Source: Euonymus europaeus
Taxonomy: Eukaryota > Streptophyta > Magnoliopsida > Celastrales > Celastraceae
NCBI GenBank assembly: GCA_963580455.1
Contig: OY756961.1
Location: 14,551,001 to 14,615,000, forward strand
Reading direction: 5' to 3'
Length of the DNA stretch: 64,000 nt
Both the position numbers and the translations under genes were made by a program. Below are positions 40,791 through 64,000 of the stretch, piece by piece; position 1 is the stretch's first letter; each line of letters begins with the position of its first letter. The notes under the pieces are model-generated. The model saw nothing but the letters and a program-made list of their open reading frames with translations, searched no databases and had not been told where the DNA came from.

Positions 40791-42690
40791 TGACAAATGG
40801 ACAAAACCGTTAAAAGCTCCTCCATAGAGAGAGTTGAGCAACTTCGGACCATCAAAGTTGCTCGGTGTACCCTTTTTATTGTTCTCCTATGTCAATTTTT
40901 ATGAGTATAAGCTTCCTACATTATTTCGATGCCAAAACACCAACTTTTTAGGACAAATGGACGAAACCGTTAAAACTTCCTCCATAGAGAGAGTTGAGCA
41001 GCTTTGGACCATCAAAATTGCTCTATGTACACTTTTTATTGTTCTTCTATGTCAAATTTTACGAGTATAAGCTTCCTAGATTATTTTGATGCCAAAACAC
41101 CAACTTTCTGTGACAAATGGATAAAAACGTTAAAAGCTCCTCTATAGAGAGTGTTGAGCGACTTCGGACCATCAAAGTTGCTCGGTGTACAATTTTTATT
41201 GTTCTTATATGTCAAATTTTACAAGTATAAGCTTCACAGATTATTTCGATGCCAAAGCACAAACTTTCTATGACAAATGGACAAAACCGTTAGAAGCTCC
41301 TCCATAGAGAGAGTTGAGCAACTTCGGACCATCAAAATTTCTCTATGTACACTTTTTATTGTTCTTCTATGTCAAATTTTACGGGTATAGGCTTCCTAGA
41401 TTATTTCGATGCCAAAACACCAACTTTCTATGACAAATGGGCAAAATCGTTAAAAGCACCTCCATAGAGAAAGTTGAGCAACTTCGGACCATCAAAGTTG
41501 CTCGGTGTACACTTTTTATTGTTCTTCTATGTCAATTTTTATGAGTATAAGCTTCCTACATTATTTTGATGCCAAAACACCAACTTTCTATGACAAATGG
41601 ACAAAACCGTTAAAAGCTCCTCCATAGAGAGAGTCGAGCAACTTCGGAATGTCAAAGTTGCTCGGGATAGACATTTTATTGTTCTTCTATGTCAAATTTT
41701 ACGAGTACAAGGTTCCTACATTATTTCGACGCCAAAACACCAACTTTCTATGACAAATGGACAAACCGTTAAAAGCAGCTCTATAGAGAGAGTTGAGCAA
41801 CTTCGGACCATCAAAGTTGCTCGGTATACAATTTTTATTGTTTTCATATGTAAAATTTTACGAGTATAAGCTTCATAGATTATTTCGAAGCCAAAACACC
41901 AACTATCTATGACAAATAGACAAAACCGTTACAAGCTCCTCCACAGAGAGAGTTGAGCAACTTCGGACTATCAAAGTTTCTCGGGATATACTTTTTATTG
42001 TTCTTCTATGTTAAATTTTACTAGTATAAGCTTCCTAGATTATTTCGATGCCAAAACACTAACTTTCTATGACAAACGGACAAAACCATTAAAAGCTCCT
42101 CCATAGAGAGAGTTGAGCAACTTCGGAATATCAAAGTTGCTCGGGATAGACTTTTTATTGTTCTTCTATGTCAAATTTTAGGAGTATAAGCTTAGTAGAT
42201 TATTTGGATGCCAAAACACCAACTTTCTATGATAAATGGATAAAACTGTTAAAAGCTCCTACATAGAGAGAGTTGAGGAACTTCGGACAATCAAAATTGC
42301 TCTATGTACACTTTTTATTTCTCTTCTATGTCAAATTTTACGAGTATAAGCTTCTAAGATTATTTCGATGCCAAAACACCAACTTTCAATGACAAATGGA
42401 CAAAACCGTTAAAAGCTCCTCCATAGAGAGAGTTGAGCAACTTCGGACCATCAACATTGCTCTATGTACACTTTTTTATTGTTCTTCTATGTCAAATTTT
42501 ACGAGTATAAGCTTCCTAGATTATTTCGATGCCAAAACACCAACTTTCTATGACAAATGGACAAAACCGTTAAAAGCACCTCCATAGAGAGAGTTGAGCA
42601 ACTTCGGACCATCAAAGTTGCTCGGTGTACACTTTTTATTGTTCTTCTATGTCAATTTTTATGAGTATAAGCTTCCTACATTATTTCGAT
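40791..42690 (+). repeat. Diverged satellite monomers
   Basis: About 12 monomers with private changes such as CTTTTTAGGACAAATGGACG near 40944 and CAAAGCACAAAC near 41255. A 159-bp monomer (GACAAACCGTT near 41760) belongs to the same derived lineage as those at 44160, 45440 and 62880. A 1-bp T insertion lies near 42471. No HOR of three or more copies is visible. Confidence 0.75.
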
Positions 42691-45283
42691 GCCAAAACAC
42701 CAACTTTCTATGACAAATGGACAAAACCGTTAAAAGCTCCTCCATAGAGAGAGTTGAGCAACTTCGGACCATCAAAGTTGCTGGTGTACACTTTTTATTG
42801 TTCTTCTATGTCAAATTTTACAAGTATAAGCTTCCTAGATTATTTCGATGCCAAAACAACAACTTTCTATGACAAATGGACAAAACCGTTAAAAGCACCT
42901 CCATAGAGAGAGTTGGGCAACTTCAGACCATCAAAATTGCTCTATGTACACTTTTTATTGCTCTTCTATGTCAAATTTTACGAGTATAAGCTTCCAAGAT
43001 TATTTCGATGCCAAAACACCAACTTTCAATGACAAATGGACAAAACCGTTAAAAGCTCCTCCATAGAGAGAGTTGACCAACTTTGGACCATCAAAATTTC
43101 TCTTTGTACAATTTTTATTGTTCTCATATGTCAAATTTTACGAGTATAAGCTTCATAGATTATTTCGATGCTAAAACACCAACTTTCTATGACAAATGGA
43201 CAAAACCGTTAAAAGCACCTTCATAGAGAGAGTTGAGCAACTTCGGACCATCAAAGTTACTCGGTGTATAATTTTTATTGTTCTCATATGTCAAATTTTA
43301 CGAGTATAAGCTTCATAGATTATTTCGATGCCAAAACACCAACTTTCTATGACAAATGGACAAAACCGTTAAAAGCTTCTCCATAGAGAGAGTTGAGCAA
43401 CTTCGGACTATCAAAGTTTCTCGGGATAGACTTTTTATTGTACTTCTATGTTAAATTTTACTAGTATAAGCTTCCTAGATTATTTCGATGCCAAAACACC
43501 AACTTTCTATGACAAATGGACAAAACCGTTAAAAGCTCCTCCATAGAGAGAGTTGAGCGACTTCGGACGATCAAAGTTGCTCGGGATAGACTTTTTATTG
43601 TTCTTCAATGTCAAATTTTACGAGTATAAGCTTCCTACATTATTTCGATGCCAAAACACCAATTTTCTATGACAAATGGACAAAACCGATAAAAGCTCCT
43701 CCATTGATAGAGTTGAGCAACTTTGGACCATCAAAATTGCTCTTTGTACAATTTTTATTGTTCTTATATGTCAAATTTTACGAGTATAAGCTTCATAGAT
43801 TATTTCGATGCTAAAATACCAACTTTCTATGACAAATGGACAAAACCGTTAAAAGCTCCTCAATGGAGAGAGTTGAGCAACTTCGGACAATCAAAGTTGC
43901 TCGGTGTATAATTTTTATTGTTCTCATAAGTCAAATTTTACGAGTATAAGCTTTCTACATTATTTCGATGCCAAAACACCAACTTTCTATGACAAATGGA
44001 CAAAACCGTTAAAAGCTCCTCCATAGAGAGAGTTGAGCAACTTCGGAATATCAAAGTTGCTCGGGATGGACTTTTTATTATTCTTCTATGTCAAATTTTA
44101 CGAGTACAAGCTTCCTACATTATTTCGACGCCAAAACACCAACTTTCTATGACAAATGGACAAACCGTTAAAAGCACCTCAATAGAGAGAGTTGAGCAAC
44201 TTCGGACCATCAAAGTTGCTCGGTATACAATTTTTATTGTTTTCATATGTAAAATTTTACGAGTATAAGCTTCATAGATTATTTCGATGCTAAAACACCA
44301 ACTTTCTATGACAAATGGACAAAACCGTTAAAAGCACCTTCATAGAGAGAGTTGAGCAACTTCGGACCATCAAAGTTACTCGGTGTATAATTTTTATTGT
44401 TCTCATATGTCAAATTTTACGAGTATAAGCTTCATAGATTATTTCGAAGCCAAAACACCAACTTTCTATGACAAATGGACAAAACTGTTAAAAGCTTCTC
44501 CATAGAGAGAGTTGAGCAACTTCGGACTATCAAAGTTTCTCGGGATAGACTTTTTATTGTTCTTCTATGTTACATTTTACTAGTATAAGCTTCCTAGATT
44601 ATTTCGATGCCAAAACACCAACTTTCTATGACAAATGGACAAAACCGTTAAAAGCTCCTCCATAGAGAGAGTTGAGCGACTTCGGACGATCAAAGTTGCT
44701 CGGGATAGACTTTTTATTATTCTTCAATGTCAAATTTTACGAGTATAAGCTTCCTACATTATTTCGATGCCAAAACACCAATTTTCTATGACAAATGGAC
44801 AAAACCGATAAAAGCTCCTCCATTGATAGAGTTGAGCAACTTCGGACCATCAAAATTGCTCTTTGTACAATTTTTATTGTTCTTATATGTCAAATTTTAC
44901 GAGTATAAGCTTCATAGATTATTTCGATGCTAAAATACCAACTTTCTATGACAAATGGACAAAACCGTTAAAAGCTCCTCCATAGAGAGAGTTGAGCAAC
45001 TTCGGACCATCAAAGTTGCTCGGTGTATAATTTTTATTGTTCTCATAAGTCAAATTTTACGAGTATAAGCTTCCTACATTATTTCGATGCCAAAACACCA
45101 ACTTTCTATGACAAATGGACAAAACCGTTAAAAGCTCCTCCATAGAGAGAGTTGAGCTACTTCGGACCATCAAAGTTGCTCGGTGTATAATTTTTATTGT
45201 TCTTCTATGTCAAATTTTACGAGTATAAGCTCCGTACATTATTTCGATGCTAAAACACCAACTTTCTATGACAAATGGACAAA
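42690..45283 (+). repeat. 2.6-kb segment, first copy of an 18,717-bp-spaced duplication
   Basis: This segment reappears at 61407-64000. The offset is 18,717 bp at every landmark I tested, for example TTTCAATGAC at 43024 and 61741, TTCGATGCTAAAATACC near 43802, and the rare TCCGTACATT at 45231 and 63948. I noticed about a dozen substitutions and one 1-bp deletion (GCTGGTG near 42781) over 2.6 kb. The left edge is where TCAATTTTTATGAG (near 42651) replaces TCAAATTTTACAAG. Confidence 0.9.
43161..45160 (+). repeat. 7-mer tandem duplication (1119 bp)
   Basis: 43161 to about 44044 recurs at 44280-45160, 1119 bp away (7 monomers less 1 bp). Shared markers in order are AGCACCTTCATAG, AAAGCTTCTCC, TTCTTCAATGTC, AACCGATAAAAGC with CATTGATAG, and TAAAATACCAAC. 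The 1-bp loss is in GACAAACCGTT near 44160. The same internal structure is present in the downstream copy at 61878-63877. Confidence 0.87.
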
Positions 45284-46210
45284 ACCGTTAAAAGCTCCTC
45301 CATAGAGAGAGTTGAGCAACTTCGGAATATCAAAGTTGCTCGGGATAGACTTTTTATTGTTTTCTATGTCAAATTTTACGAGTACAAGCTTCCTACATTA
45401 TTTCGACGCCAAAACACCAACTTTCTATGACAAATGGACAAACCGTTAAAAGCACCTCAATAGAGAGAGTTGAGCAACTTCGGACCATCAAAGTTGCTCG
45501 ATATACAATTTTTATTGTTTTCATATGTAAAATTTTACGAGTATAAGCTTCATAGATTATTTCGATGCGAAAACACCAACTATCTATGACAAATAGACAA
45601 AACCGTTACAAGCTCCTCCATAGAGAGAGTTGAGCAACTTCGGACTATCAAAGTTTCTCGGGATATACTTTTTATTGTTCTTCTATGTTAAATTTTACTA
45701 GTATAAGCTTCCTAGATTATTTCGATGCCAAAACACCAACTTTCTATGACAAATGGACAAAACAGTTAAGAGCTCCTCCATAGATAGAGTTGAGCAACTT
45801 CGGACAATCAAAGTTTCTCGGGTTAGACTTTTTATTGTTCTTCTATGTTAAATTTTACGAGTATAAGCTTCAAAGATTATTTTGATGCCAAAACACCAAC
45901 TTTCTATGACAAATATACAAAACCGTTAAAAGCTCCTTCATAGAGAGAGTTGAGCAACTTCGGAATATCAAAGTTGCTCGGGATAGACTTTTTATTGTTC
46001 TTCTATGTCGAATTTTACGAGTACAAGCTTCCTACATTATTTCGATGCCAAAACACTAACTTTCTATGACAAATGGACAAAACTGTTAAAAGCTCCTCCA
46101 TAGAGAGAGTTGAGCAACTTCGGAATATCAAAGTTGCTCGGGATAGACTTTTTATTGTTCTTCTATGTCAAATTTTATGAGTATAAGCTTCCTAGATTAT
46201 TTGGATGCCA
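45284..46210 (+). repeat. Transition monomers at the left edge of the 19-mer HOR
   Basis: About six monomers. Two 1-bp losses occur close together (TATTGTTTTCTATG near 45361 and GACAAACCGTT near 45440). From there to about 62880 I find no further indel. Monomers here with AAATATACAAAACC (45911) and AACACTAAC (46051) reappear once, near 57751 and 57891, inside the HOR. Confidence 0.8.
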
Positions 46211-48930
46211 AAACACCAACTTTCTATGATAAATGAATAAAACCGTTAAAAGCTCCTACATAGAGAGAGTTGAGGAACTTCGGACAATCAAAATTGCTCT
46301 ATGTACACTTTTTATTTCTCTTCTATGTCAAATTTTACGAGTATAAGCTTCTAAGATTATTTCGATGCCAAAATACCAACTTTCAATGACAAATGGACAA
46401 AACCGTTAAAAGCTCCTCCATAGAGAGAGTTGTGCAACTTCGGACCATCAACATTTCTCTATGTACACTTTTTATTGTTCTTCTATGTCAAATTTTATGA
46501 GTATAAGCTTCCTAGATTATTTCGATGCCAAAACACCAACTTTCAATGACAAATGGACAAAACCGTTAAAAGCACCTCCATAGAGAGAGTTGAGCAACTT
46601 CGGACCATCAACATTGCTCATTGTACACTTTTTATTGTTCTTCTATGTCAAATTTTATGAGTATAAGCTTCCTAGATTATTTCGATGCCAAAACACCAAC
46701 TTTCTATGACAAATGGACAAAACCGTTAAAGGCACCTCCATAGAGAGAGTTGAGCAACTTCGGACCATCAAAGTTGCTCGGTGTACACTTTTTATTGTTC
46801 TTCTATGTCAATTTTTATGAGTATAAGCTTCCTACATTATTTCGATGCCAAAACACCAACTTTCTATGATAAATGGACAAAACCGTTAAAAGCTCCTCCA
46901 TAGAGAGAGTTGAGCAAATTTTGAATATCAAAGTTGCTCGGGATAGACTTTTTATTGTTCTTATATGTCAAATATTAGGAGTGCAAGCTTCCTACATTAT
47001 TTCGACGCCAAAACACCAACTTTCTATGACAAATGGACAAAACTGTTAAAAGCTCCTCCATAGAGAGAGTTGAGCAACTTCGGACCATCAAAGTTGTTCT
47101 ATGTATACTTTTTATTGTTCTTATATGTCAAATTTTACAAGTACAAGCTTCATAGATTATTTCGATGCTAAAACACCAACTTTCTATGATAAATGGATAA
47201 AACCGTTAAAAGCTCCTACATAGAGAGAGTTGAGGAACTTCGGACCATCAAAATTGCTCTATGTACACTTTTTATTTCTCTTCTATGTCAAATTTTACGA
47301 GTATAAGCTTCTAAGATTATTTCGATGCCAAAACACCAACTTTCAATGACAAATGGACAAAACCGTTAAAAGCTCCTCCATAGAGAGAGTTGAGCAACTT
47401 CGGACCATCAAAGTTGCTCGGTGTACACTTTTTATTGTTCTTCTATGTCAAATTTTACAAGTATAAGCTTCCTAGATTATTTCGATGCCAAAACACCAAC
47501 TTTCTATGACAAATGGACAAAACCGTTAAAAGCTCCTCCATAGAGAGAGTTGAGCAACTTCGGACCATCAAAGTTGCTCGGTGTACACTTTTTATTGTTC
47601 TTCTATGTCAAATTTTACAAGTATAAGCTTCCTAGATTATTTCGATGCCAAAACACCAACTTTCTATGACAAATGGACAAAACCGTTAAAAGCACCTCCA
47701 TAGAGAGAGTTGGGCAACTTCAGACCATCAAAATTGCTCTATGTACACTTTTTATTGCTCTTCTATGTCAAATTTTACGAGTATAAGCTTCCAAGATTAT
47801 TTCGATGCCAAAACACCAACTTTCAATGACAAATGGACAAAACCGTTAAAAGCTCCTCCATAGAGAGAGTTGACCAACTTTGGACCATCAAAATTTCTCT
47901 TTGTACAATTTTTATTGTTCTCATATGTCAAATTTTACGAGTATAAGCTTCATAGATTATTTCGATGCTAAAACACCAACTTTCTATGACAAATGGACAA
48001 AACCGTTAAAAGCACCTCCATAGAGAGAGTTGAGCAACTTCGGACCATCAACATTGCTCTATGTACACTTTTTATTGTTCTTCTATGTCAAATTTTACGA
48101 GTATAAGCTTCCTAGATTATTTCGATGCCAAAACACCAACTTTCTATGACAAATGGACAAAACCGTTAAAAGCACCTCCATAGAGAGAGTTGAGCAACTT
48201 TGGACAATCAAAGTTGCTCGGTGTACACTTTTTATTGTTCTTCTATGTCAATTTTTATGAGTATAAGCTTCCTACATTATTTCGATGCCAAAACACCAAC
48301 TTTCTATGACAAATGGACAAAACCGTTAAAAGCTCCTCCATAGAGAGAGTTGAGGAACTTCGGACCATCAAAGTTGCTCGGTGTACACTTTTTATTGTTC
48401 TTCTATGTCAAATTTTACAAGTATAAGCTTCCTAGATTATTTCGATGCCAAAACACCAACTTTCTATGACAAATGGACAAAACCGTTAAAAGCACCTCCA
48501 TAGAGAGAGTTGGGCAACTTCAGACCATCAAAATTGCTCTATGTACACTTTTTATTGCTCTTCTATGTCAAATTTTACGTGTATAAGCTTCCAAGATTAT
48601 TTCGATGCCAAAACACCAACTTTCAATGACAAATGGACAAAACCGTTAAAAGCTCCTCCATAGAGAGAGTTGACCAACTTTGGACCATCAAAATTTCTCT
48701 TTGTACAATTTTTATTGTTCTCATATGTCAAATTTTACGAGTATAAGCTTCATAGATTATTTCGATGCTAAAACACCAACTTTCTATGACAAATGGACAA
48801 AACCGTTAAAAGCTCCTCCATAGAGAGAGTTGAGCAACTTCGGAATATCAAAGTTGCTCGGGATAGACTTTTTATTGTTCTTCTATGTCAAATTTTATGA
48901 GTATAAGCTTCCTAGATTATTTGGATGCCA
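46211..48930 (+). repeat. 17-mer variant copy of the 19-mer HOR
   Basis: This copy is 320 bp shorter than its neighbours. It lacks the equivalent of 51491-51810, two monomers carrying GATGTTAAAACACC with AGCACCTTCATAG, and a second TTGACCAACTTTGG monomer. The TTGACCAACTTTGG monomer is therefore present three times in the 19-mer and twice here. Either this is the ancestral length or it lost two monomers by unequal exchange. Confidence 0.88.
47481..48760 (+). repeat. Three-monomer duplication nested in the HOR unit (800-bp spacing)
   Basis: A trio with TTTTACAAGTATAAG, TTGGGCAACTTCAGACC and TTGACCAACTTTGG occurs twice per HOR unit, 800 bp apart (TTGGGCAACTTCAG near 47711 and 48511, 50431 and 51231, 53471 and 54271, 56511 and 57311, 59551 and 60351). 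Thus each 3040-bp unit itself contains an older duplication, giving three nested levels: monomer, trio and 19-mer. Confidence 0.85.
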
Positions 48931-51900
48931 AAACACCAACTTTCTATGATAAATGAATAAAACCGTTAAAAGCTCCTACATAGAGAGAGTTGAGGAACTT
49001 CGGACAATTAAAATTGCTCTATGTACACTTTTTATTTCTCTTCTATGTCAAATTTTACGAGTATAAGCTTCTAAGATTATTTCGATGCCAAAATACCAAC
49101 TTTCAATGACAAATGGACAAAACCGTTAAAAGCTCCTCCATAGAGAGAGTTGTGCAACTTCGGACCATCAACATTTCTCTATGTACACTTTTTATTGTTC
49201 TTCTATGTCAAATTTTATGAGTATAAGCTTCCTAGATTATTTCGATGCCAAAACACCAACTTTCAATGACAAATGGACAAAACCGTTAAAAGCACCTCCA
49301 TAGAGAGAGTTGAGCAACTTCGGACCATCAACATTGCTCATTGTACACTTTTTATTGTTCTTCTATGTCAAATTTTATGAGTATAAGCTTCCTAGATTAT
49401 TTCGATGCCAAAACACCAACTTTCTATGACAAATGGACAAAACCGTTAAAGGCACCTCCATAGAGAGAGTTGAGCAACTTCGGACCATCAAAGTTGCTCG
49501 GTGTACACTTTTTATTGTTCTTCTATGTCAATTTTTATGAGTATAAGCTTCCTACATTATTTCGATGCCAAAACACCAACTTTCTATGATAAATGGACAA
49601 AACCGTTAAAAGCTCCTCCATAGAGAGAGTTGAGCAAATTTTGAATATCAAAGTTGCTCGGGATAGACTTTTTATTGTTCTTATATGTCAAATATTAGGA
49701 GTGCAAGCTTCCTACATTATTTCGACGCCAAAACACCAACTTTCTATGACAAATGGACAAAACTGTTAAAAGCTCCTCCATAGAGAGAGTTGAGCAACTT
49801 CGGACCATCAAAGTTGTTCTATGTATACTTTTTATTGTTCTTATATGTCAAATTTTACAAGTACAAGCTTCATAGATTATTTCGATGCTAAAACACCAAC
49901 TTTCTATGATAAATGGATAAAACCGTTAAAAGCTCCTACATAGAGAGAGTTGAGGAACTTCGGACCATCAAAATTGCTCTATGTACACTTTTTATTTCTC
50001 TTCTATGTCAAATTTTACGAGTATAAGCTTCTAAGATTATTTCGATGCCAAAACACCAACTTTCAATGACAAATGGACAAAACCGTTAAAAGCTCCTCCA
50101 TAGAGAGAGTTGAGCAACTTCGGACCATCAAAGTTGCTCGGTGTACACTTTTTATTGTTCTTCTATGTCAAATTTTACAAGTATAAGCTTCCTAGATTAT
50201 TTCGATGCCAAAACACCAACTTTCTATGACAAATGGACAAAACCGTTAAAAGCTCCTCCATAGAGAGAGTTGAGCAACTTCGGACCATCAAAGTTGCTCG
50301 GTGTACACTTTTTATTGTTCTTCTATGTCAAATTTTACAAGTATAAGCTTCCTAGATTATTTCGATGCCAAAACACCAACTTTCTATGACAAATGGACAA
50401 AACCGTTAAAAGCACCTCCATAGAGAGAGTTGGGCAACTTCAGACCATCAAAATTGCTCTATGTACACTTTTTATTGCTCTTCTATGTCAAATTTTACGA
50501 GTATAAGCTTCCAAGATTATTTCGATGCCAAAACACCAACTTTCAATGACAAATGGACAAAACCGTTAAAAGCTCCTCCATAGAGAGAGTTGACCAACTT
50601 TGGACCATCAAAATTTCTCTTTGTACAATTTTTATTGTTCTCATATGTCAAATTTTACGAGTATAAGCTTCATAGATTATTTCGATGCTAAAACACCAAC
50701 TTTCTATGACAAATGGACAAAACCGTTAAAAGCACCTCCATAGAGAGAGTTGAGCAACTTCGGACCATCAACATTGCTCTATGTACACTTTTTATTGTTC
50801 TTCTATGTCAAATTTTACGAGTATAAGCTTCCTAGATTATTTCGATGCCAAAACACCAACTTTCTATGACAAATGGACAAAACCGTTAAAAGCACCTCCA
50901 TAGAGAGAGTTGAGCAACTTTGGACAATCAAAGTTGCTCGGTGTACACTTTTTATTGTTCTTCTATTTCAATTTTTATGAGTATAAGCTTCCTACATTAT
51001 TTCGATGCCAAAACACCAACTTTCTATGACAAATGGACAAAACCGTTAAAAGCTCCTCCATAGAGAGAGTTGAGGAACTTCGGACCATCAAAGTTGCTCG
51101 GTGTACACTTTTTATTGTTCTTCTATGTCAAATTTTACAAGTATAAGCTTCCTAGATTATTTCGATGCCAAAACACCAACTTTCTATGACAAATGGACAA
51201 AACCGTTAAAAGCACCTCCATAGAGAGAGTTGGGCAACTTCAGACCATCAAAATTGCTCTATGTACACTTTTTATTGCTCTTCTATGTCAAATTTTACGA
51301 GTATAAGCTTCCAAGATTATTTCGATGCCAAAACACCAACTTTCAATGACAAATGGACAAAACCGTTAAAAGCTCCTCCATAGAGAGAGTTGACCAACTT
51401 TGGACCATCAAAATTTCTCTTTGTACAATTTTTATTGTTCTCATATGTCAAATTTTACGAGTATAAGCTTCATAGATTATTTCGATGTTAAAACACCAAC
51501 TTTCTATGACAAATGGACAAAACCGTTAAAAGCACCTTCATAGAGAGAGTTGAGCAACTTCGGACCATTAAAGTTACTCGGTGTATAATTTTTATTGTTC
51601 TCATATGTCAAATTTTACGAGTATAAGCTTCATAGATTATTTCGATGCCAAAACACCAACTTTCAATGACAAATGGACAAAACCGTTAAAAGCTCCTCCA
51701 TAGAGAGAGTTGACCAACTTTGGACCATCAAAATTTCTCTTTGTACAATTTTTATTGTTCTCATATGTCAAATTTTACGAGTATAAGCTTCATAGATTAT
51801 TTCGATGCTAAAACACCAACTTTCTATGACAAATGGACAAAACCGTTAAAAGCTCCTCCATAGAGAGAGTTGAGCAACTTCGGAATATCAAAGTTGCTCG

Positions 51901-54900
51901 GGATAGACTTTTTATTGTTCTTCTATGTCAAATTTTATGAGTATAAGCTTCCTAGATTATTTGGATGCCAAAACACCAACTTTCTATGATAAATGAATAA
52001 AACCGTTAAAAGCTCCTACATAGAGAGAGTTGAGGAACTTCGGACAATTAAAATTGCTCTATGTACACTTTTTATTTCTCTTCTATGTCAAATTTTACGA
52101 GTATAAGCTTCTAAGATTATTTCGATGCCAAAATACCAACTTTCAATGACAAATGGACAAAACCGTTAAAAGCTCCTCCATAGAGAGAGTTGTGCAACTT
52201 CGGACCATCAACATTTCTCTATGTACACTTTTTATTGTTCTTCTATGTCAAATTTTATGAGTATAAGCTTCCTAGATTATTTCGATGCCAAAACACCAAC
52301 TTTCAATGACAAATGGACAAAACCGTTAAAAGCACCTCCATAGAGAGAGTTGAGCAACTTCGGACCATCAACATTGCTCATTGTACACTTTTTATTGTTC
52401 TTCTATGTCAAATTTTATGAGTATAAGCTTCCTAGATTATTTCGATGCCAAAACACCAACTTTCTATGACAAATGGACAAAACCGTTAAAGGCACCTCCA
52501 TAGAGAGAGTTGAGCAACTTCGGACCATCAAAGTTGCTCGGTGTACACTTTTTATTGTTCTTCTATGTCAATTTTTATGAGTATAAGCTTCCTACATTAT
52601 TTCGATGCCAAAACACCAACTTTCTATGATAAATGGACAAAACCGTTAAAAGCTCCTCCATAGAGAGAGTTGAGCAAATTTTGAATATCAAAGTTGCTCG
52701 GGATAGACTTTTTATTGTTCTTATATGTCAAATATTAGGAGTGCAAGCTTCCTACATTATTTCGACGCCAAAACACCAACTTTCTATGACAAATGGACAA
52801 AACTGTTAAAAGCTCCTCCATAGAGAGAGTTGAGCAACTTCGGACCATCAAAGTTGTTCTATGTATACTTTTTATTGTTCTTATATGTCAAATTTTACAA
52901 GTACAAGCTTCATAGATTATTTCGATGCTAAAACACCAACTTTCTATGATAAATGGATAAAACCGTTAAAAGCTCCTACATAGAGAGAGTTGAGGAACTT
53001 CGGACCATCAAAATTGCTCTATGTACACTTTTTATTTCTCTTCTATGTCAAATTTTACGAGTATAAGCTTCTAAGATTATTTCGATGCCAAAACACCAAC
53101 TTTCAATGACAAATGGACAAAACCGTTAAAAGCTCCTCCATAGAGAGAGTTGAGCAACTTCGGACCATCAAAGTTGCTCGCTGTACACTTTTTATTGTTC
53201 TTCTATGTCAAATTTTACAAGTATAAGCTTCCTAGATTATTTCGATGCCAAAACACCAACTTTCTATGACAAATGGACAAAACCGTTAAAAGCTCCTCCA
53301 TAGAGAGAGTTGAGCAACTTCGGACCATCAAAGTTGCTCGGTGTACACTTTTTATTGTTCTTCTATGTCAAATTTTACAAGTATAAGCTTCCTAGATTAT
53401 TTCGATGCCAAAACACCAACTTTCTATGACAAATGGACAAAACCGTTAAAAGCACCTCCATAGAGAGAGTTGGGCAACTTCAGACCATCAAAATTGCTCT
53501 ATGTACACTTTTTATTGCTCTTCTATGTCAAATTTTACGAGTATAAGCTTCCAAGATTATTTCGATGCCAAAACACCAACTTTCAATGACAAATGGACAA
53601 AACCGTTAAAAGCTCCTCCATAGAGAGAGTTGACCAACTTTGGACCATCAAAATTTCTCTTTGTACAATTTTTATTGTTCTCATATGTCAAATTTTACGA
53701 GTATAAGCTTCATAGATTATTTCGATGCTAAAACACCAACTTTCTATGACAAATGGACAAAACCGTTAAAAGCACCTCCATAGAGAGAGTTGAGCAACTT
53801 CGGACCATCAACATTGCTCTATGTACACTTTTTATTGTTCTTCTATGTCAAATTTTACGAGTATAAGCTTCCTAGATTATTTCGATGCCAAAACACCAAC
53901 TTTCTATGACAAATGGACAAAACCGTTAAAAGCACCTCCATAGAGAGAGTTGAGCAACTTTGGACAATCAAAGTTGCTCGGTGTACACTTTTTATTGTTC
54001 TTCTATTTCAATTTTTATGAGTATAAGCTTCCTACATTATTTCGATGCCAAAACACCAACTTTCTATGACAAATGGACAAAACCGTTAAAAGCTCCTCCA
54101 TAGAGAGAGTTGAGGAACTTCGGACCATCAAAGTTGCTCGGTGTACACTTTTTATTGTTCTTCTATGTCAAATTTTACAAGTATAAGCTTCCTAGATTAT
54201 TTCGATGCCAAAACACCAACTTTCTATGACAAATGGACAAAACCGTTAAAAGCACCTCCATAGAGAGAGTTGGGCAACTTCAGACCATCAAAATTGCTCT
54301 ATGTACACTTTTTATTGCTCTTCTATGTCAAATTTTACGAGTATAAGCTTCCAAGATTATTTCGATGCCAAAACACCAACTTTCAATGACAAATGGACAA
54401 AACCGTTAAAAGCTCCTCCATAGAGAGAGTTGACCAACTTTGGACCATCAAAATTTCTCTTTGTACAATTTTTATTGTTCTCATATGTCAAATTTTACGA
54501 GTATAAGCTTCATAGATTATTTCGATGTTAAAACACCAACTTTCTATGACAAATGGACAAAACCGTTAAAAGCACCTTCATAGAGAGAGTTGAGCAACTT
54601 CGGACCATTAAAGTTACTCGGTGTATAATTTTTATTGTTCTCATATGTCAAATTTTACGAGTATAAGCTTCATAGATTATTTCGATGCCAAAACACCAAC
54701 TTTCAATGACAAATGGACAAAACCGTTAAAAGCTCCTCCATAGAGAGAGTTGACCAACTTTGGACCATCAAAATTTCTCTTTGTACAATTTTTATTGTTC
54801 TCATATGTCAAATTTTACGAGTATAAGCTTCATAGATTATTTCGATGCTAAAACACCAACTTTCTATGACAAATGGACAAAACCGTTAAAAGCTCCTCCA

Positions 54901-57730
54901 TAGAGAGAGTTGAGCAACTTCGGAATATCAAAGTTGCTCGGGATAGACTTTTTATTGTTCTTCTATGTCAAATTTTATGAGTATAAGCTTCCTAGATTAT
55001 TTGGATGCCAAAACACCAACTTTCTATGATAAATGAATAAAACCGTTAAAAGCTCCTACATAGAGAGAGTTGAGGAACTTCGGACAATTAAAATTGCTCT
55101 ATGTACACTTTTTATTTCTCTTCTATGTCAAATTTTACGAGTATAAGCTTCTAAGATTATTTCGATGCCAAAATACCAACTTTCAATGACAAATGGACAA
55201 AACCGTTAAAAGCTCCTCCATAGAGAGAGTTGTGCAACTTCGGACCATCAACATTTCTCTATGTACACTTTTTATTGTTCTTCTATGTCAAATTTTATGA
55301 GTATAAGCTTCCTAGATTATTTCGATGCCAAAACACCAACTTTCAATGACAAATGGACAAAACCGTTAAAAGCACCTCCATAGAGAGAGTTGAGCAACTT
55401 CGGACCATCAACATTGCTCATTGTACACTTTTTATTGTTCTTCTATGTCAAATTTTATGAGTATAAGCTTCCTAGATTATTTCGATGCCAAAACACCAAC
55501 TTTCTATGACAAATGGACAAAACCGTTAAAGGCACCTCCATAGAGAGAGTTGAGCAACTTCGGACCATCAAAGTTGCTCGGTGTACACTTTTTATTGTTC
55601 TTCTATGTCAATTTTTATGAGTATAAGCTTCCTACATTATTTCGATGCCAAAACACCAACTTTCTATGATAAATGGACAAAACCGTTAAAAGCTCCTCCA
55701 TAGAGAGAGTTGAGCAAATTTTGAATATCAAAGTTGCTCGGGATAGACTTTTTATTGTTCTTATATGTCAAATATTAGGAGTGCAAGCTTCCTACATTAT
55801 TTCGACGCCAAAACACCAACTTTCTATGACAAATGGACAAAACTGTTAAAAGCTCCTCCATAGAGAGAGTTGAGCAACTTCGGACCATCAAAGTTGTTCT
55901 ATGTATACTTTTTATTGTTCTTATATGTCAAATTTTACAAGTACAAGCTTCATAGATTATTTCGATGCTAAAACACCAACTTTCTATGATAAATGGATAA
56001 AACCGTTAAAAGCTCCTACATAGAGAGAGTTGAGGAACTTCGGACCATCAAAATTGCTCTATGTACACTTTTTATTTCTCTTCTATGTCAAATTTTACGA
56101 GTATAAGCTTCTAAGATTATTTCGATGCCAAAACACCAACTTTCAATGACAAATGGACAAAACCGTTAAAAGCTCCTCCATAGAGAGAGTTGAGCAACTT
56201 CGGACCATCAAAGTTGCTCGCTGTACACTTTTTATTGTTCTTCTATGTCAAATTTTACAAGTATAAGCTTCCTAGATTATTTCGATGCCAAAACACCAAC
56301 TTTCTATGACAAATGGACAAAACCGTTAAAAGCTCCTCCATAGAGAGAGTTGAGCAACTTCGGACCATCAAAGTTGCTCGGTGTACACTTTTTATTGTTC
56401 TTCTATGTCAAATTTTACAAGTATAAGCTTCCTAGATTATTTCGATGCCAAAACACCAACTTTCTATGACAAATGGACAAAACCGTTAAAAGCACCTCCA
56501 TAGAGAGAGTTGGGCAACTTCAGACCATCAAAATTGCTCTATGTACACTTTTTATTGCTCTTCTATGTCAAATTTTACGAGTATAAGCTTCCAAGATTAT
56601 TTCGATGCCAAAACACCAACTTTCAATGACAAATGGACAAAACCGTTAAAAGCTCCTCCATAGAGAGAGTTGACCAACTTTGGACCATCAAAATTTCTCT
56701 TTGTACAATTTTTATTGTTCTCATATGTCAAATTTTACGAGTATAAGCTTCATAGATTATTTCGATGCTAAAACACCAACTTTCTATGACGAATGGACAA
56801 AACCGTTAAAAGCACCTCCATAGAGAGAGTTGAGCAACTTCGGACCATCAACATTGCTCTATGTACACTTTTTATTGTTCTTCTATGTCAAATTTTACGA
56901 GTATAAGCTTCCTAGATTATTTCGATGCCAAAACACCAACTTTCTATGACAAATGGACAAAACCGTTAAAAGCACCTCCATAGAGAGAGTTGAGCAACTT
57001 TGGACAATCAAAGTTGCTCGGTGTACACTTTTTATTGTTCTTCTATTTCAATTTTTATGAGTATAAGCTTCCTACATTATTTCGATGCCAAAACACCAAC
57101 TTTCTATGACAAATGGACAAAACCGTTAAAAGCTCCTCCATAGAGAGAGTTGAGGAACTTCGGACCATCAAAGTTGCTCGGTGTACACTTTTTATTGTTC
57201 TTCTATGTCAAATTTTACAAGTATAAGCTTCCTAGATTATTTCGATGCCAAAACACCAACTTTCTATGACAAATGGACAAAACCGTTAAAAGCACCTCCA
57301 TAGAGAGAGTTGGGCAACTTCAGACCATCAAAATTGCTCTATGTACACTTTTTATTGCTCTTCTATGTCAAATTTTACGAGTATAAGCTTCCAAGATTAT
57401 TTCGATGCCAAAACACCAACTTTCAATGACAAATGGACAAAACCGTTAAAAGCTCCTCCATAGAGAGAGTTGACCAACTTTGGACCATCAAAATTTCTCT
57501 TTGTACAATTTTTATTGTTCTCATATGTCAAATTTTACGAGTATAAGCTTCATAGATTATTTCGATGTTAAAACACCAACTTTCTATGACAAATGGACAA
57601 AACCGTTAAAAGCACCTTCATAGAGAGAGTTGAGCAACTTCGGACCATTAAAGTTACTCGGTGTATAATTTTTATTGTTCTCATATGTCAAATTTTACGA
57701 GTATAAGCTTCATAGATTATTTCGATGCCA

Positions 57731-57890
57731 AAACACCAACTTTCTATGACAAATATACAAAACCGTTAAAAGCTTCTCCATAGAGAGAGTTGAGCAACTT
57801 CGGACTATCAAAGTTTCTCGGGATAGACTTTTTATTGTACTTCTATGTCGAATTTTACGAGTACAAGCTTCCTACATTATTTCGATGCCA
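57731..57890 (+). repeat. Chimeric monomer with an apparent gene-conversion patch
   Basis: The monomer begins like 45891-46050 (AAATATACAAAACC). Then from about 57771 to 57840 it carries AGCTTCTCC, GGACTATC, GTTTCTCGGGATAG and TATTGTACTTC, which are the variants of the monomers near 43381 and 60811. It ends again like 45.9-46.0 kb (TGTCGAATTTTACG, GTACAAGC, followed by AACACTAAC). This alternation A-B-A inside one 160-bp unit is the pattern expected of a short conversion tract or double crossover. Confidence 0.75.
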
Positions 57891-60800
57891 AAACACTAAC
57901 TTTCTATGACAAATGGACAAAACTGTTAAAAGCTCCTCCATAGAGAGAGTTGAGCAACTTCGGAATATCAAAGTTGCTCGGGATAGACTTTTTATTGTTC
58001 TTCTATGTCAAATTTTATGAGTATAAGCTTCCTAGATTATTTGGATGCCAAAACACCAACTTTCTATGATAAATGAATAAAACCGTTAAAAGCTCCTACA
58101 TAGAGAGAGTTGAGGAACTTCGGACAATCAAAATTGCTCTATGTACACTTTTTATTTCTCTTCTATGTCAAATTTTACGAGTATAAGCTTCTAAGATTAT
58201 TTCGATGCCAAAATACAAACTTTCAATGACAAATGGACAAAACCGTTAAAAGCTCCTCCATAGAGAGAGTTGTGCAACTTCGGACCATCAACATTTCTCT
58301 ATGTACACTTTTTATTGTTCTTCTATGTCAAATTTTATGAGTATAAGCTTCCTAGATTATTTCGATGCCAAAACACCAACTTTCAATGACAAATGGACAA
58401 AACCGTTAAAAGCACCTCCATAGAGAGAGTTGAGCAACTTCGGACCATCAACATTGCTCATTGTACACTTTTTATTGTTCTTCTATGTCAAATTTTATGA
58501 GTATAAGCTTCCTAGATTATTTCGATGCCAAAACACCAACTTTCTATGACAAATGGACAAAACCGTTAAAGGCACCTCCATAGAGAGAGTTGAGCAACTT
58601 CGGACCATCAAAGTTGCTCGGTGTACACTTTTTATTGTTCTTCTATGTCAATTTTTATGAGTATAAGCTTCCTACATTATTTCGATGCCAAAACACCAAC
58701 TTTCTATGATAAATGGACAAAACCGTTAAAAGCTCCTCCATAGAGAGAGTTGAGCAAATTTTGAATATCAAAGTTGCTCGGGATAGACTTTTTATTGTTC
58801 TTATATGTCAAATATTAGGAGTGCAAGCTTCCTACATTATTTCGACGCCAAAACACCAACTTTCTATGACAAATGGACAAAACTGTTAAAAGCTCCTCCA
58901 TAGAGAGAGTTGAGCAACTTCGGACCATCAAAGTTGTTCTATGTATACTTTTTATTGTTCTTATATGTCAAATTTTACAAGTACAAGCTTCATAGATTAT
59001 TTCGATGCTAAAACACCAACTTTCTATGATAAATGGATAAAACCGTTAAAAGCTCCTACATAGAGAGAGTTGAGGAACTTCGGACCATCAAAATTGCTCT
59101 ATGTACACTTTTTATTTCTCTTCTATGTCAAATTTTACGAGTATAAGCTTCTAAGATTATTTCGATGCCAAAACACCAACTTTCAATGACAAATGGACAA
59201 AACCGTTAAAAGCTCCTCCATAGAGAGAGTTGAGCAACTTCGGACCATCAAAGTTGCTCGGTGTACACTTTTTATTGTTCTTCTATGTCAAATTTTACAA
59301 GTATAAGCTTCCTAGATTATTTCGATGCCAAAACACCAACTTTCTATGACAAATGGACAAAACCGTTAAAAGCTCCTCCATAGAGAGAGTTGAGCAACTT
59401 CGGACCATCAAAGTTGCTCGGTGTACACTTTTTATTGTTCTTCTATGTCAAATTTTACAAGTATAAGCTTCCTAGATTATTTCGATGCCAAAACACCAAC
59501 TTTCTATGACAAATGGACAAAACCGTTAAAAGCACCTCCATAGAGAGAGTTGGGCAACTTCAGACCATCAAAATTGCTCTATGTACACTTTTTATTGCTC
59601 TTCTATGTCAAATTTTACGAGTATAAGCTTCCAAGATTATTTCGATGCCAAAACACCAACTTTCAATGACAAATGGACAAAACCGTTAAAAGCTCCTCCA
59701 TAGAGAGAGTTGACCAACTTTGGACCATCAAAATTTCTCTTTGTACAATTTTTATTGTTCTCATATGTCAAATTTTACGAGTATAAGCTTCATAGATTAT
59801 TTCGATGCTAAAACACCAACTTTCTATGACAAATGGACAAAACCGTTAAAAGCACCTCCATAGAGAGAGTTGAGCAACTTCGGACCATCAACATTGCTCT
59901 ATGTACACTTTTTATTGTTCTTCTATGTCAAATTTTACGAGTATAAGCTTCCTAGATTATTTCGATGCCAAAACACCAACTTTCTATGACAAATGGACAA
60001 AACCGTTAAAAGCACCTCCATAGAGAGAGTTGAGCAACTTTGGACAATCAAAGTTGCTCGGTGTACACTTTTTATTGTTCTTCTATGTCAATTTTTATGA
60101 GTATAAGCTTCCTACATTATTTCGATGCCAAAACACCAACTTTCTATGACAAATGGACAAAACCGTTAAAAGCTCCTCCATAGAGAGAGTTGAGGAACTT
60201 CGGACCATCAAAGTTGCTCGGTGTACACTTTTTATTGTTCTTCTATGTCAAATTTTACAAGTATAAGCTTCCTAGATTATTTCGATGCCAAAACACCAAC
60301 TTTCTATGACAAATGGACAAAACCGTTAAAAGCACCTCCATAGAGAGAGTTGGGCAACTTCAGACCATCAAAATTGCTCTATGTACACTTTTTATTGCTC
60401 TTCTATGTCAAATTTTACGAGTATAAGCTTCCAAGATTATTTCGATGCCAAAACACCAACTTTCAATGACAAATGGACAAAACCGTTAAAAGCTCCTCCA
60501 TAGAGAGAGTTGACCAACTTTGGACCATCAAAATTTCTCTTTGTACAATTTTTATTGTTCTCATATGTCAAATTTTACGAGTATAAGCTTCATAGATTAT
60601 TTCGATGCTAAAACACCAACTTTCTATGACAAATGGACAAAACCGTTAAAAGCACCTTCATAGAGAGAGTTGAGCAACTTCGGACCATCAAAGTTACTCG
60701 GTGTATAATTTTTATTGTTCTCATATGTCAAATTTTACGAGTATAAGCTTCATAGATTATTTCGATGCCAAAACACCAACTTTCTATGACAAATGGACAA

Positions 60801-60990
60801 AACCGTTAAAAGCTTCTCCATAGAGAGAGTTGAGCAACTTCGGACTATCAAAGTTTCTCGGGATAGACTTTTTATTGTACTTCTATGTTAAATTTTACTA
60901 GTATAAGCTTCCTAGATTATTTCGATGCCAAAACACCAACTTTCTATGACAAATGGACAAAACTGTTAAAAGCTCCTCCATAGAGAGAGT

Positions 60991-61406
60991 TGAGCAACTT
61001 CGGACCATCAAAGTTGCTCTATGTATACTTTTTATTGTTCTTATATGTCAAATTTTACAAGTACAAGCTTCATAGATTATTTCGATGCTAAAACACCAAC
61101 TTTCTATGATAAATGGATAAAACCGTTAAAAGCTCCTACATAGAGAGAGTTGAGGAACTTCGGACCATCAAAATTGCTCTATGTACACTTTTTATTTCTC
61201 TTCTATGTCAAATTTTACGAGTATAAGCTTCTAAGATTATTTCGATGCCAAAACACCAACTTTCAATGACAAATGGACAAAACCGTTAAAAGCTCCTCCA
61301 TAGAGAGAGTTGAGCAACTTCGGACCATCAAAGTTGCTCGGTGTACACTTTTTATTGTTCTTCTATGTCAAATTTTACAAGTATAAGCTTCCTAGATTAT
61401 TTCGAT
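60991..61406 (+). repeat. Junction after the 19-mer HOR
   Basis: From about 60991 the sequence stops following the 3040-bp period and instead follows positions 2080 bp (13 monomers) upstream: GCTCTATGTATAC at 61016 matches the GTTCTATGTATAC at 58936, and the next three monomers agree. About 61.4-62.2 kb also matches sequence 1280 bp upstream. This looks like an unequal-exchange breakpoint inside the HOR. Confidence 0.75.
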
Positions 61407-64000
61407 GCCAAAACACCAACTTTCTATGACAAATGGACAAAACCGTTAAAAGCTCCTCCATAGAGAGAGTTGAGCAACTTCGGACCATCAAAGTTGCTCG
61501 GTGTACACTTTTTATTGTTCTTCTATGTCAAATTTTACAAGTATAAGCTTCCTAGATTATTTCGATGCCAAAACACCAACTTTCTATGACAAATGGACAA
61601 AACCGTTAAAAGCACCTCCATAGAGAGAGTTGGGCAACTTCAGACCATCAAAATTGCTCTATGTACACTTTTTATTGCTCTTCTATGTCAAATTTTACGA
61701 GTATAAGCTTCCAAGATTATTTCGATGCCAAAACACCAACTTTCAATGACAAATGGACAAAACCGTTAAAAGCTCCTCCATAGAGAGAGTTGACCAACTT
61801 TGGACCATCAAAATTTCTCTTTGTACAATTTTTATTGTTCTCATATGTCAAATTTTACGAGTATAAGCTTCATAGATTATTTCGATGCTAAAACACCAAC
61901 TTTCTATGACAAATGGACAAAACCGTTAAAAGCACCTTCATAGAGAGAGTTGAGCAACTTCGGACCATCAAAGTTACTCGGTGTATAATTTTTATTGTTC
62001 TCATATGTCAAATTTTACGAGTATAAGCTTCATAGATTATTTCGATGCCAAAACACCAACTTTCTATGACAAATGGACAAAACCGTTAAAAGCTTCCCCA
62101 TAGAGAGAGTTGAGCAACTTCGGACTATCAAAGTTTCTCGGGATAGACTTTTTATTGTACTTCTATGTTAAATTTTACTAGTATAAGCTTCCTAGATTAT
62201 TTCGATGCCAAAACACCAACTTTCTATGACAAATGGACAAAACCGTTAAAAGCTCCTCCATAGAGAGAGTTGAGCGACTTCGGACGATCAAAGTTGCTCG
62301 GGATAGACTTTTTATTGTTCTTCAATGTCAAATTTTACGAGTATAAGCTTCCTACATTATTTCGATGCCAAAACACCAATTTTCTATGACAAATGGACAA
62401 AACCGATAAAAGCTCCTCCATTGATAGAGTTGAGCAACTTTGGACCATCAAAATTGCTCTTTGTACAATTTTTATTGTTCTTATATGTCAAATTTTACGA
62501 GTATAAGCTTCATAGATTATTTCGATGCTAAAATACCAACTTTCTATGACAAATGGACAAAACCGTTAAAAGCTCCTCAATGGAGAGAGTTGAGCAACTT
62601 CGGACCATCAAAGTTGCTCGGTGTATAATTTTTATTGTTCTCATAAGTCAAATTTTACGAGTATAAGCTTCCTACATTATTTCGATGCCAAAACACCAAC
62701 TTTCTATGACAAATGGACAAAACCGTTAAAAGCTCCTCCATAGAGAGAGTTGAGCAACTTCGGAATATCAAAGTTGCTCGGGATGGAATTTTTATTATTC
62801 TTCTATGTCAAATTTTACGAGTACAAGCTTCCTACATTAATTCGACGCCAAAACACCAACTTTCTATGACAAATGGACAAACCGTTAAAAGCACCTCAAT
62901 AGAGAGAGTTGAGCAACTTCGGACCATCAAAGTTGCTCGGTATACAATTTTTATTGTTTTCATATGTAAAATTTTACGAGTATAAGCTTCATAGATTATT
63001 TCGATGCTAAAACACCAACTTTCTATGAAAAATGGACAAAACCGTTAAAAGCACCTTCATAGAGAGAGTTGAGCAACTTCGGACCATCAAAGTTACTCGA
63101 TGTATAATTTTTATTGTTCTCATATGTCAAATTTTACGAGTATAAGCTTCATAGATTATTTCGAAGCCAAAACACCAACTTTCTATGACAAATGGACAAA
63201 ACTGTTAAAAGCTTCTCCATAGAGAGAGTTGAGCAACTTCGGACTATCAAAGTTTCTCGGGATAGACTTTTTATTGTTCTTCTATGTTACATTTTACTAG
63301 TATAAGCTTCCTAGATTATTTCGATGCCAAAACACCAACTTTCTATGACAAATGGACAAAACCGTTAAAAGCTCCTCCATAGAGAGAGTTGAGCGACTTC
63401 GGACGATCAAAGTTGCTCGGGATAGACTTTTTATTATTCTTCAATGTCAAATTTTACGAGTATAAGCTTCCTACATTATTTCGATGCCAAAACACCAATT
63501 TTCTATGACAAATGGACAAAACCGATAAAAGCTCCTCCATTGATAGAGTTGAGCAACTTCGGACCATCAAAATTGCTCTTTGTACAATTTTTATTGTTCT
63601 TATATGTCAAATTTTACGAGTATAAGCTTCATAGATTATTTCGATGCTAAAATACCAACTTTCTATGACAAATGGACAAAACCGTTAAAAGCTCCTCCAT
63701 AGAGAGAGTTGAGCAACTTCGGACCATCAAAGTTGCTCGGTGTATAATTTTTATTGTTCTCATAAGTCAAATTTTACGAGTATAAGCTTTCTACATTATT
63801 TCGATGCCAAAACACCAACTTTCTATGACAAATGGACAAAACCGTTAAAAGCTCCTCCATAGAGAGAGTTGAGCAACTTCGGACCATCAAAGTTGCTCGG
63901 TGTATAATTTTTATTGTTCTTCTATGTCAAATTTTACGAGTATAAGCTCCGTACATTATTTCGATGCTAAAACACCAACTTTCTATGACAAATGGACAAA
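61407..64000 (+). repeat. 2.6-kb segment, second copy, running off the window
   Basis: Matches 42690-45283 at a fixed offset of 18,717 bp up to the last base. Differences I noticed include CGGACCATC for CGGACAATC near 62603, GATGGAATTTT for GATGGACTTTT near 62784, CATTAATTCG near 62836, TATGAAAAATGG near 63025 and TTACTCGATG near 63096. It has the same 7-mer duplication inside and the same 159-bp monomer near 62880. The right end is not reached. Confidence 0.9.

Follow-up and report, generated by a model that had tools for sequence, protein, structure and literature searches.

Near-identical blocks of several monomers are described as higher-order repeat (HOR) block pairs in satellite arrays of Arabidopsis, as they are in the locus that is the subject of this work. 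In the Palv156/Palv148 satellite arrays of Populus, HOR blocks lie at varying distances (PMC12046899), and the present locus shares with them near-identical multi-monomer blocks at varying distances and a monomer in the range of ~150-180 bp, but consists of a different satellite, of 160 bp. In human centromeres, HORs are described as expanding in layers or saltatory steps (PMC11062924; PMC12321929), which similarly places a younger, more homogeneous HOR inside an older array, beside more diverged relics, although the human arrays are very large whereas only four to five units are found here. The cascading 59mer HOR of the orangutan is comparable in that monomer types are repeated within one HOR unit; the 59mer, however, forms a true tandem period of eight copies (PMC11276891), unlike the offset of 117 monomers considered below, which comes without tandem copies. 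Finally, young insertions of CRM elements are known from plant core centromeres (PMC10910784). Against this background, the locus would be a compact example of a new HOR arising between older copies, with a chimeric junction monomer and a transposon that postdates the duplication; it is a new instance of a known process, ordinary satellite-DNA evolution, and leaves the general picture unchanged.

The satellite array and its duplicated segment

The window, that is, the whole analyzed stretch of 64,000 nucleotides (C5:14551001-14615000, from a genome of 443 Mb in 30 contigs), is a head-to-tail array of a 160-bp satellite, with 395 copies and 90% matches (TRF). The next 200 kb downstream were fetched as L009-L028 (position 64001 is L009:1), which gives 264 kb in all, of which 42 kb lie upstream of the first copy of the duplicated segment; positions in the window plus the downstream sequence are marked "x". 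Across these 264 kb, BLAST yielded 1626 satellite matches, all on the plus strand, and the sole stretch of more than 60 bp without a satellite match, 64269-69518, is the body of one insertion (see below). With this element taken out, the sequence was cut into 1616 monomers that differ by 10.2% in the mean pairwise comparison and by a median of 16 differences over all monomer pairs. Comparison of the downstream sequence with the window by BLAST was uninformative because the 90% satellite background fuses everything into alignments of ~29 kb; the analysis was therefore based on monomer-level distances. Judging from the character of the array, this is probably a centromeric or pericentromeric satellite. 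A literature search by repeat length, which was far from exhaustive, found no description of it. In a genome DNA search with 42690-45283, where 8 of 8932 candidates were scored, the window's own place not among them, and which thus provides no copy count, the scored full-length matches (91-92%) comprised 7 on C5 (13.50-14.93 Mb) and 1 on C10 (14.80 Mb), and one of the seven C5 matches was on the minus strand. Accordingly, two contigs carry the satellite, and its orientation probably switches within the C5 array.

Within the array, two near-identical copies of one segment, both on the plus strand, flank a region of different monomer order, that is, they form a non-tandem HOR block duplication. 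The first copy (A1) occupies 42594-47069 and consists of monomers 266-293 (28 monomers, 4,476 bp). The second (A2) starts at 61310, extends to the end of the window at 64000 and on to 64268 (L009:268), is interrupted by a retrotransposon at L009:269-5533 followed by a second AGCTT (L009:5534-5538), and continues from L009:5539 to its end at L009:7057 (x 71057); without the element, it likewise comprises 28 monomers, in 4,478 bp. When aligned with the element cut out, A1 and A2 differ by 24 substitutions and two 1-bp indels, which in monomer terms is a pair of 28 monomers at offset 117 with a mean of 0.93 differences per monomer. Chance is excluded as the source of this similarity: the A1/A2 sum is 26 differences, whereas shuffling the monomer order 10 times gave minima of 317-348 across all offsets.

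A preliminary description of the window had recognized 42690-45283 and 61407-64000 as copies of a 2.6-kb segment at one constant offset of 18,717 bp, a length that falls well short of the full segment. The offset applies from 42783 to ~45361, where it is shifted by a 1-bp indel, but not further left, given that a 1-bp indel at 42783 makes it 18,716 for 42594-42782. The estimate of roughly a dozen differences agrees with the 10 substitutions (plus the indel at 42783) counted in 42783-45283, and the second copy indeed still matches at the window edge. The match halts at 64268 solely because the retrotransposon sits in the second copy; the outcome named there as refuting the super-repeat, a loss of the match within a few hundred bases, thus occurs at 64269, but it would refute for the wrong reason, as it reflects the inserted element, beyond which the match resumes at an offset of 23,988 and covers ~1.5 kb more, up to position 47069 of the first copy. 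The outcome named as support, that the sequence from 64001 onwards matches that from 45284 onwards and includes another 19-mer block, was borne out for the continuation, the element aside, but not for the block: agreement is lost at L009:7058. To the left, the agreement fades over monomers 266 (4 differences), 265 (9) and 264 (16); to the right, past 47069, the differences per monomer rise from 2 to 13 and remain high in the next 15 monomers save one (with 6). Just past the right end of A2, monomer 413 (L009:7378-7534) is 157 bp long, and no other monomer of the 264 kb comes closer to it than 11 differences; an old junction may lie here.

The same description had proposed that an 18.7-kb block is itself repeated in tandem, as a fourth hierarchical level. 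The downstream sequence lends no support to this proposal. The A1/A2 match spans 28 of the 117 monomers and then departs, without two consecutive complete units, and no second 19-mer block is found in the 200 kb downstream. At the places where a third copy would lie, one period up (monomers 149-176) and one period down (monomers 500-527), the mean numbers of differences per monomer are 16.0 and 15.6, respectively, which is the background level. Elsewhere in the 264 kb, no comparable 28-monomer block is present, the next best matches having 314 (A1) and 312 (A2) differences versus 26, and 8-monomer blocks starting at monomers 266-286 recur with 10 or fewer differences only in the two copies and the sequence immediately around them. 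As an average over all 264 kb, offset 117 comes 60th of the 398 offsets from 2 to 399. The sequence examined contains no period of 117 monomers. As to the "trio" level of the earlier hierarchy, offset 3 is outside the ten best offsets in each of four stretches. The locus shows that a long constant offset in a satellite array need not be a period, as a younger HOR expanding between duplicated flanks gives the same signal. Shorter pieces of the duplicated segment do recur: each HOR unit contains its tail, HOR unit 4 closes with its head, and, just past A2, the string of monomer types 30 31 32 33 34 39 occurs at monomers 416-421 and 30 31 32 33 at monomers 429-432 and 442-445.

The 19-monomer repeat between the copies

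The block between the copies (47070-60989, plus strand) consists of monomers 294-380 (87 monomers, 13,920 bp). The 19-mer HOR reported earlier is present in four full units, all on the plus strand: unit 1 at 48830-51869 (monomers 305-323), unit 2 at 51870-54909 (monomers 324-342), unit 3 at 54910-57949 (monomers 343-361) and unit 4 at 57950-60989 (monomers 362-380). They are preceded by a 17-monomer variant of the unit (46110-48829, plus strand, monomers 288-304), the first six monomers of which are the tail of A1. The repeat is a genuine HOR, with a run of 57 monomers at offset 19 and a mean of 0.61 differences per monomer. Clustering of the monomers into types gives the order A1 ... 41 42 43 16 44 28 23 45, then 46 16 29 29 30 31 28 23 29 30 31, then the four 19-mers, then 46 16 29 and A2. 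The 19-mer itself reads 43 16 44 28 23 45 46 16 29 29 30 31 28 23 29 30 31 32 plus a variable last monomer, and types 16, 28, 23, 29, 30 and 31 occur repeatedly within the unit.

When monomers 294-380 are removed, A1 and A2 come to lie at a spacing of 4,796 bp, or 30 monomers, and type 45 is followed by type 46, in register, just as it is within each HOR unit. The spacing of 18,717 bp is best explained as this 4.8-kb spacing plus 13,920 bp of 19-mer repeats; the distance is a sum of events rather than a repeat period and does not imply a function of its own.

The variable last monomers of the units bear on how the repeat could have formed. In unit 3, the last monomer (361; 57790-57949) is composed exactly of type 33 on the left and type 42 on the right, with the switch in columns 50-59; this chimera fits with 0 mismatches as opposed to 3 for the best single parent (8 tried). 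This is what would be left by an out-of-register exchange between the start of A2 (type 33) and the end of A1 (type 42, then 43). The last monomer of unit 4 (380) is type 33 with one change that is also found in types 42 and 45. For monomers 304, 323, 342 and 380, a chimera fits better by one base only, and given this small gain, these fits carry little weight.

The retrotransposon in the second copy

The insertion in A2 (L009:269-5533; x 64269-69533) is 5,265 bp long and is bounded by near-identical LTRs of 446 bp (443/446 identical) that end in TGATGA...TCATCA. A target duplication, AGCTT, is located on both sides, and A1 retains the empty site, with a single AGCTT at 45546-45550. The LTRs and the target-site duplication identify the insertion as an LTR retrotransposon. 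The element has a Retrotrans_gag match in a sense ORF (PF03732, E 1.8e-15); another ORF, in antisense orientation, hits PF04195, described as 'Putative gypsy type transposon' (E 1.6e-06). No pol domain (reverse transcriptase, integrase or other) was detected by Pfam at E 0.01 in 21 stop-to-stop frames of at least 80 aa, three of which were scanned from the start codon and 18 whole, and the element thus does not combine gag with pol as an autonomous LTR retrotransposon does. Matches to ATG16 (E 0.006) and FLAD1_M (E 0.001) did not reach Pfam's cut-off and were regarded as chance. On the basis of these domains, we classify the element as a non-autonomous, putatively gypsy-like LTR retrotransposon. 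TR-GAG elements are non-autonomous gag-only LTR retrotransposons of plants; the present element resembles them in having a gag ORF (PF03732) and LTRs but no Pfam pol domain in frames of at least 80 aa, and differs from them in the additional antisense PF04195 ORF.

The element is young and split the second copy later: given that A1 keeps the empty site, it entered A2 after the duplication. A clock cannot order the two events because the intervals overlap, LTR divergence being 0.67% (95% interval 0.14-1.95%) and divergence of the A1-A2 core 0.48% (0.29-0.74%).

Order of events and comparison with the rest of the array

The relative age of the duplication and the HOR can be approached through the six-monomer tail that is common to A1, A2 and the HOR. 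This tail contains four sites that distinguish A1 from A2. Three of them have a rare base (found in 7, 6 and 27 of the 1616 monomers) in A1 and in each of the four HOR units, and the common one in A2; the fourth difference is private to A2. Given their rarity, these bases are probably derived, and their presence in both the A1 tail and the HOR implies that, barring later conversion, the HOR derives from the A1 side and arose once the two copies had split. These patterns suggest that the HOR expansion followed the duplication. Gene conversion of the A1 tail with neighboring HOR units would mimic such allele sharing without fixing the order. Divergence points in the same direction under one way of counting: the A1-A2 core has 20 differences in 26 monomers, compared to 15 in 54 between adjacent HOR units (conditional Poisson p = 0.003), where monomers 266-267 and the last monomer of each HOR unit are dropped and the adjacent-unit comparisons are not mutually independent; with nothing dropped, the values are 26 in 28 and 41 in 57, respectively, with no clear difference.

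We consider it highly probable that the locus arose by local satellite turnover through non-allelic exchange, in which segment A was duplicated, the 19-mer expanded between the copies and the element inserted in A2. Under this scenario, a stretch of ~28 monomers would have been duplicated to give A1 and A2 at a spacing of ~30 monomers, as suggested by the in-register junction that appears without the block, and the copies would then have diverged to the ~0.5% that is observed. An out-of-register event in the A1/A2 junction region could have joined a type-33 to a type-42 monomer and thus created the 19-monomer unit, which would subsequently have been amplified to four copies and the 17-mer variant, parting A1 and A2 to 18.7 kb. 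The route of this step, to which the chimeric monomer and the allele sharing pertain, may have been unequal sister-chromatid exchange or break-induced replication; one report favors break-induced replication over unequal exchange (PMC12321929), so the literature leans to the former, and the sequence of this locus does not decide. The gypsy-like element inserted into A2 at some time after the duplication, as shown by the empty site in A1, either before or after the 19-mer expanded. The preliminary description had offered expansion of the HOR inside a duplicated segment as its second reading, and this reading gains support from the in-register spacing of 4,796 bp and the shared rare alleles. The four-step history is not complete: the resemblance of HOR monomers 13-14 (types 28, 23) to the left flank of A1 (265-266) requires at least one further rearrangement, and the A-like strings past A2 place A in an older layer of repeats, outside the scope of this history.

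Several other explanations have to be weighed against this scenario. A2 might have been copied from A1 at a distance once the HOR existed, by long-tract conversion or break-induced replication and without a tandem A1/A2 stage; in this array, bracketed block pairs are frequent and span many distances, and 61 of the 80 near-identical runs of at least 10 monomers (many of them overlapping) have an offset greater than their length. This possibility appears doubtful to us, given that the A1-A2 core is more diverged than the HOR units are from each other (with monomers 266-267 and the last HOR monomers dropped) and that the 45-46 junction is in register once the block is removed. A true tandem duplication of 18.7 kb comprising A1 and the HOR, with the right-hand 89 monomers of the second unit, HOR block included, deleted later, would account for the position of the right edge of A2, which falls directly after six HOR-type monomers (43 16 44 28 23 45), just inside the start of the HOR block. 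We regard it as distinctly unlikely: it calls for an extra large deletion, no remnant of a second HOR block is found in the 200 kb downstream, and the three rare alleles of the A1 tail and the HOR are absent from A2, so that the present HOR type seems younger than the split.

The locus could also have belonged to a longer hierarchy in the past, either a HOR of ~30 monomers (4.8 kb) or an 18.7-kb duplication, of which only the flanking A copies are left around a newborn 19-mer. We hold this to be improbable; if true, the locus would document and date how one HOR level replaced another, the retrotransposon insertion serving as a clock. An assembly artefact, in which two haplotypes or collapsed reads were joined and one segment was doubled, deserves consideration since satellite arrays misassemble easily and the analysis used the assembled sequence. 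Between the copies, however, there are 24 substitutions, two indels and a 5.3-kb element with its target-site duplication, and the same array contains many other block pairs, though these are equally suspect; an artefact is therefore very improbable. Duplication followed by HOR expansion between the copies is the preferred reading.

The A1/A2 pair is not special within the array and represents ordinary satellite turnover that is unusually legible. Altogether 1241 of the 1616 monomers fall in some near-identical run. When the best 28-monomer pair is taken for each offset, three pairs are at least as close as A1/A2, with sums of 11, 11 and 24 differences at offsets 32, 69 and 38, respectively. 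The offset-32 pair is a plain adjacent duplication, 32 monomers long; the offset-69 and offset-38 pairs are bracketed like A1/A2, the former also with offset-16 repeats between and overlapping its copies. The copies of the offset-69 pair are located at L027:4325-8800 and L028:5360-9835 and show 11 differences over 28 monomers, and the second one matches right up to the last monomer fetched. Some 38 kb past the window edge, there is a 16-monomer HOR array (L012:7618 to L013:6744) with a 41-monomer run at offset 16 and a mean of 0.32 differences; near-identical runs with offsets of 21 and 26 lie ahead of it.
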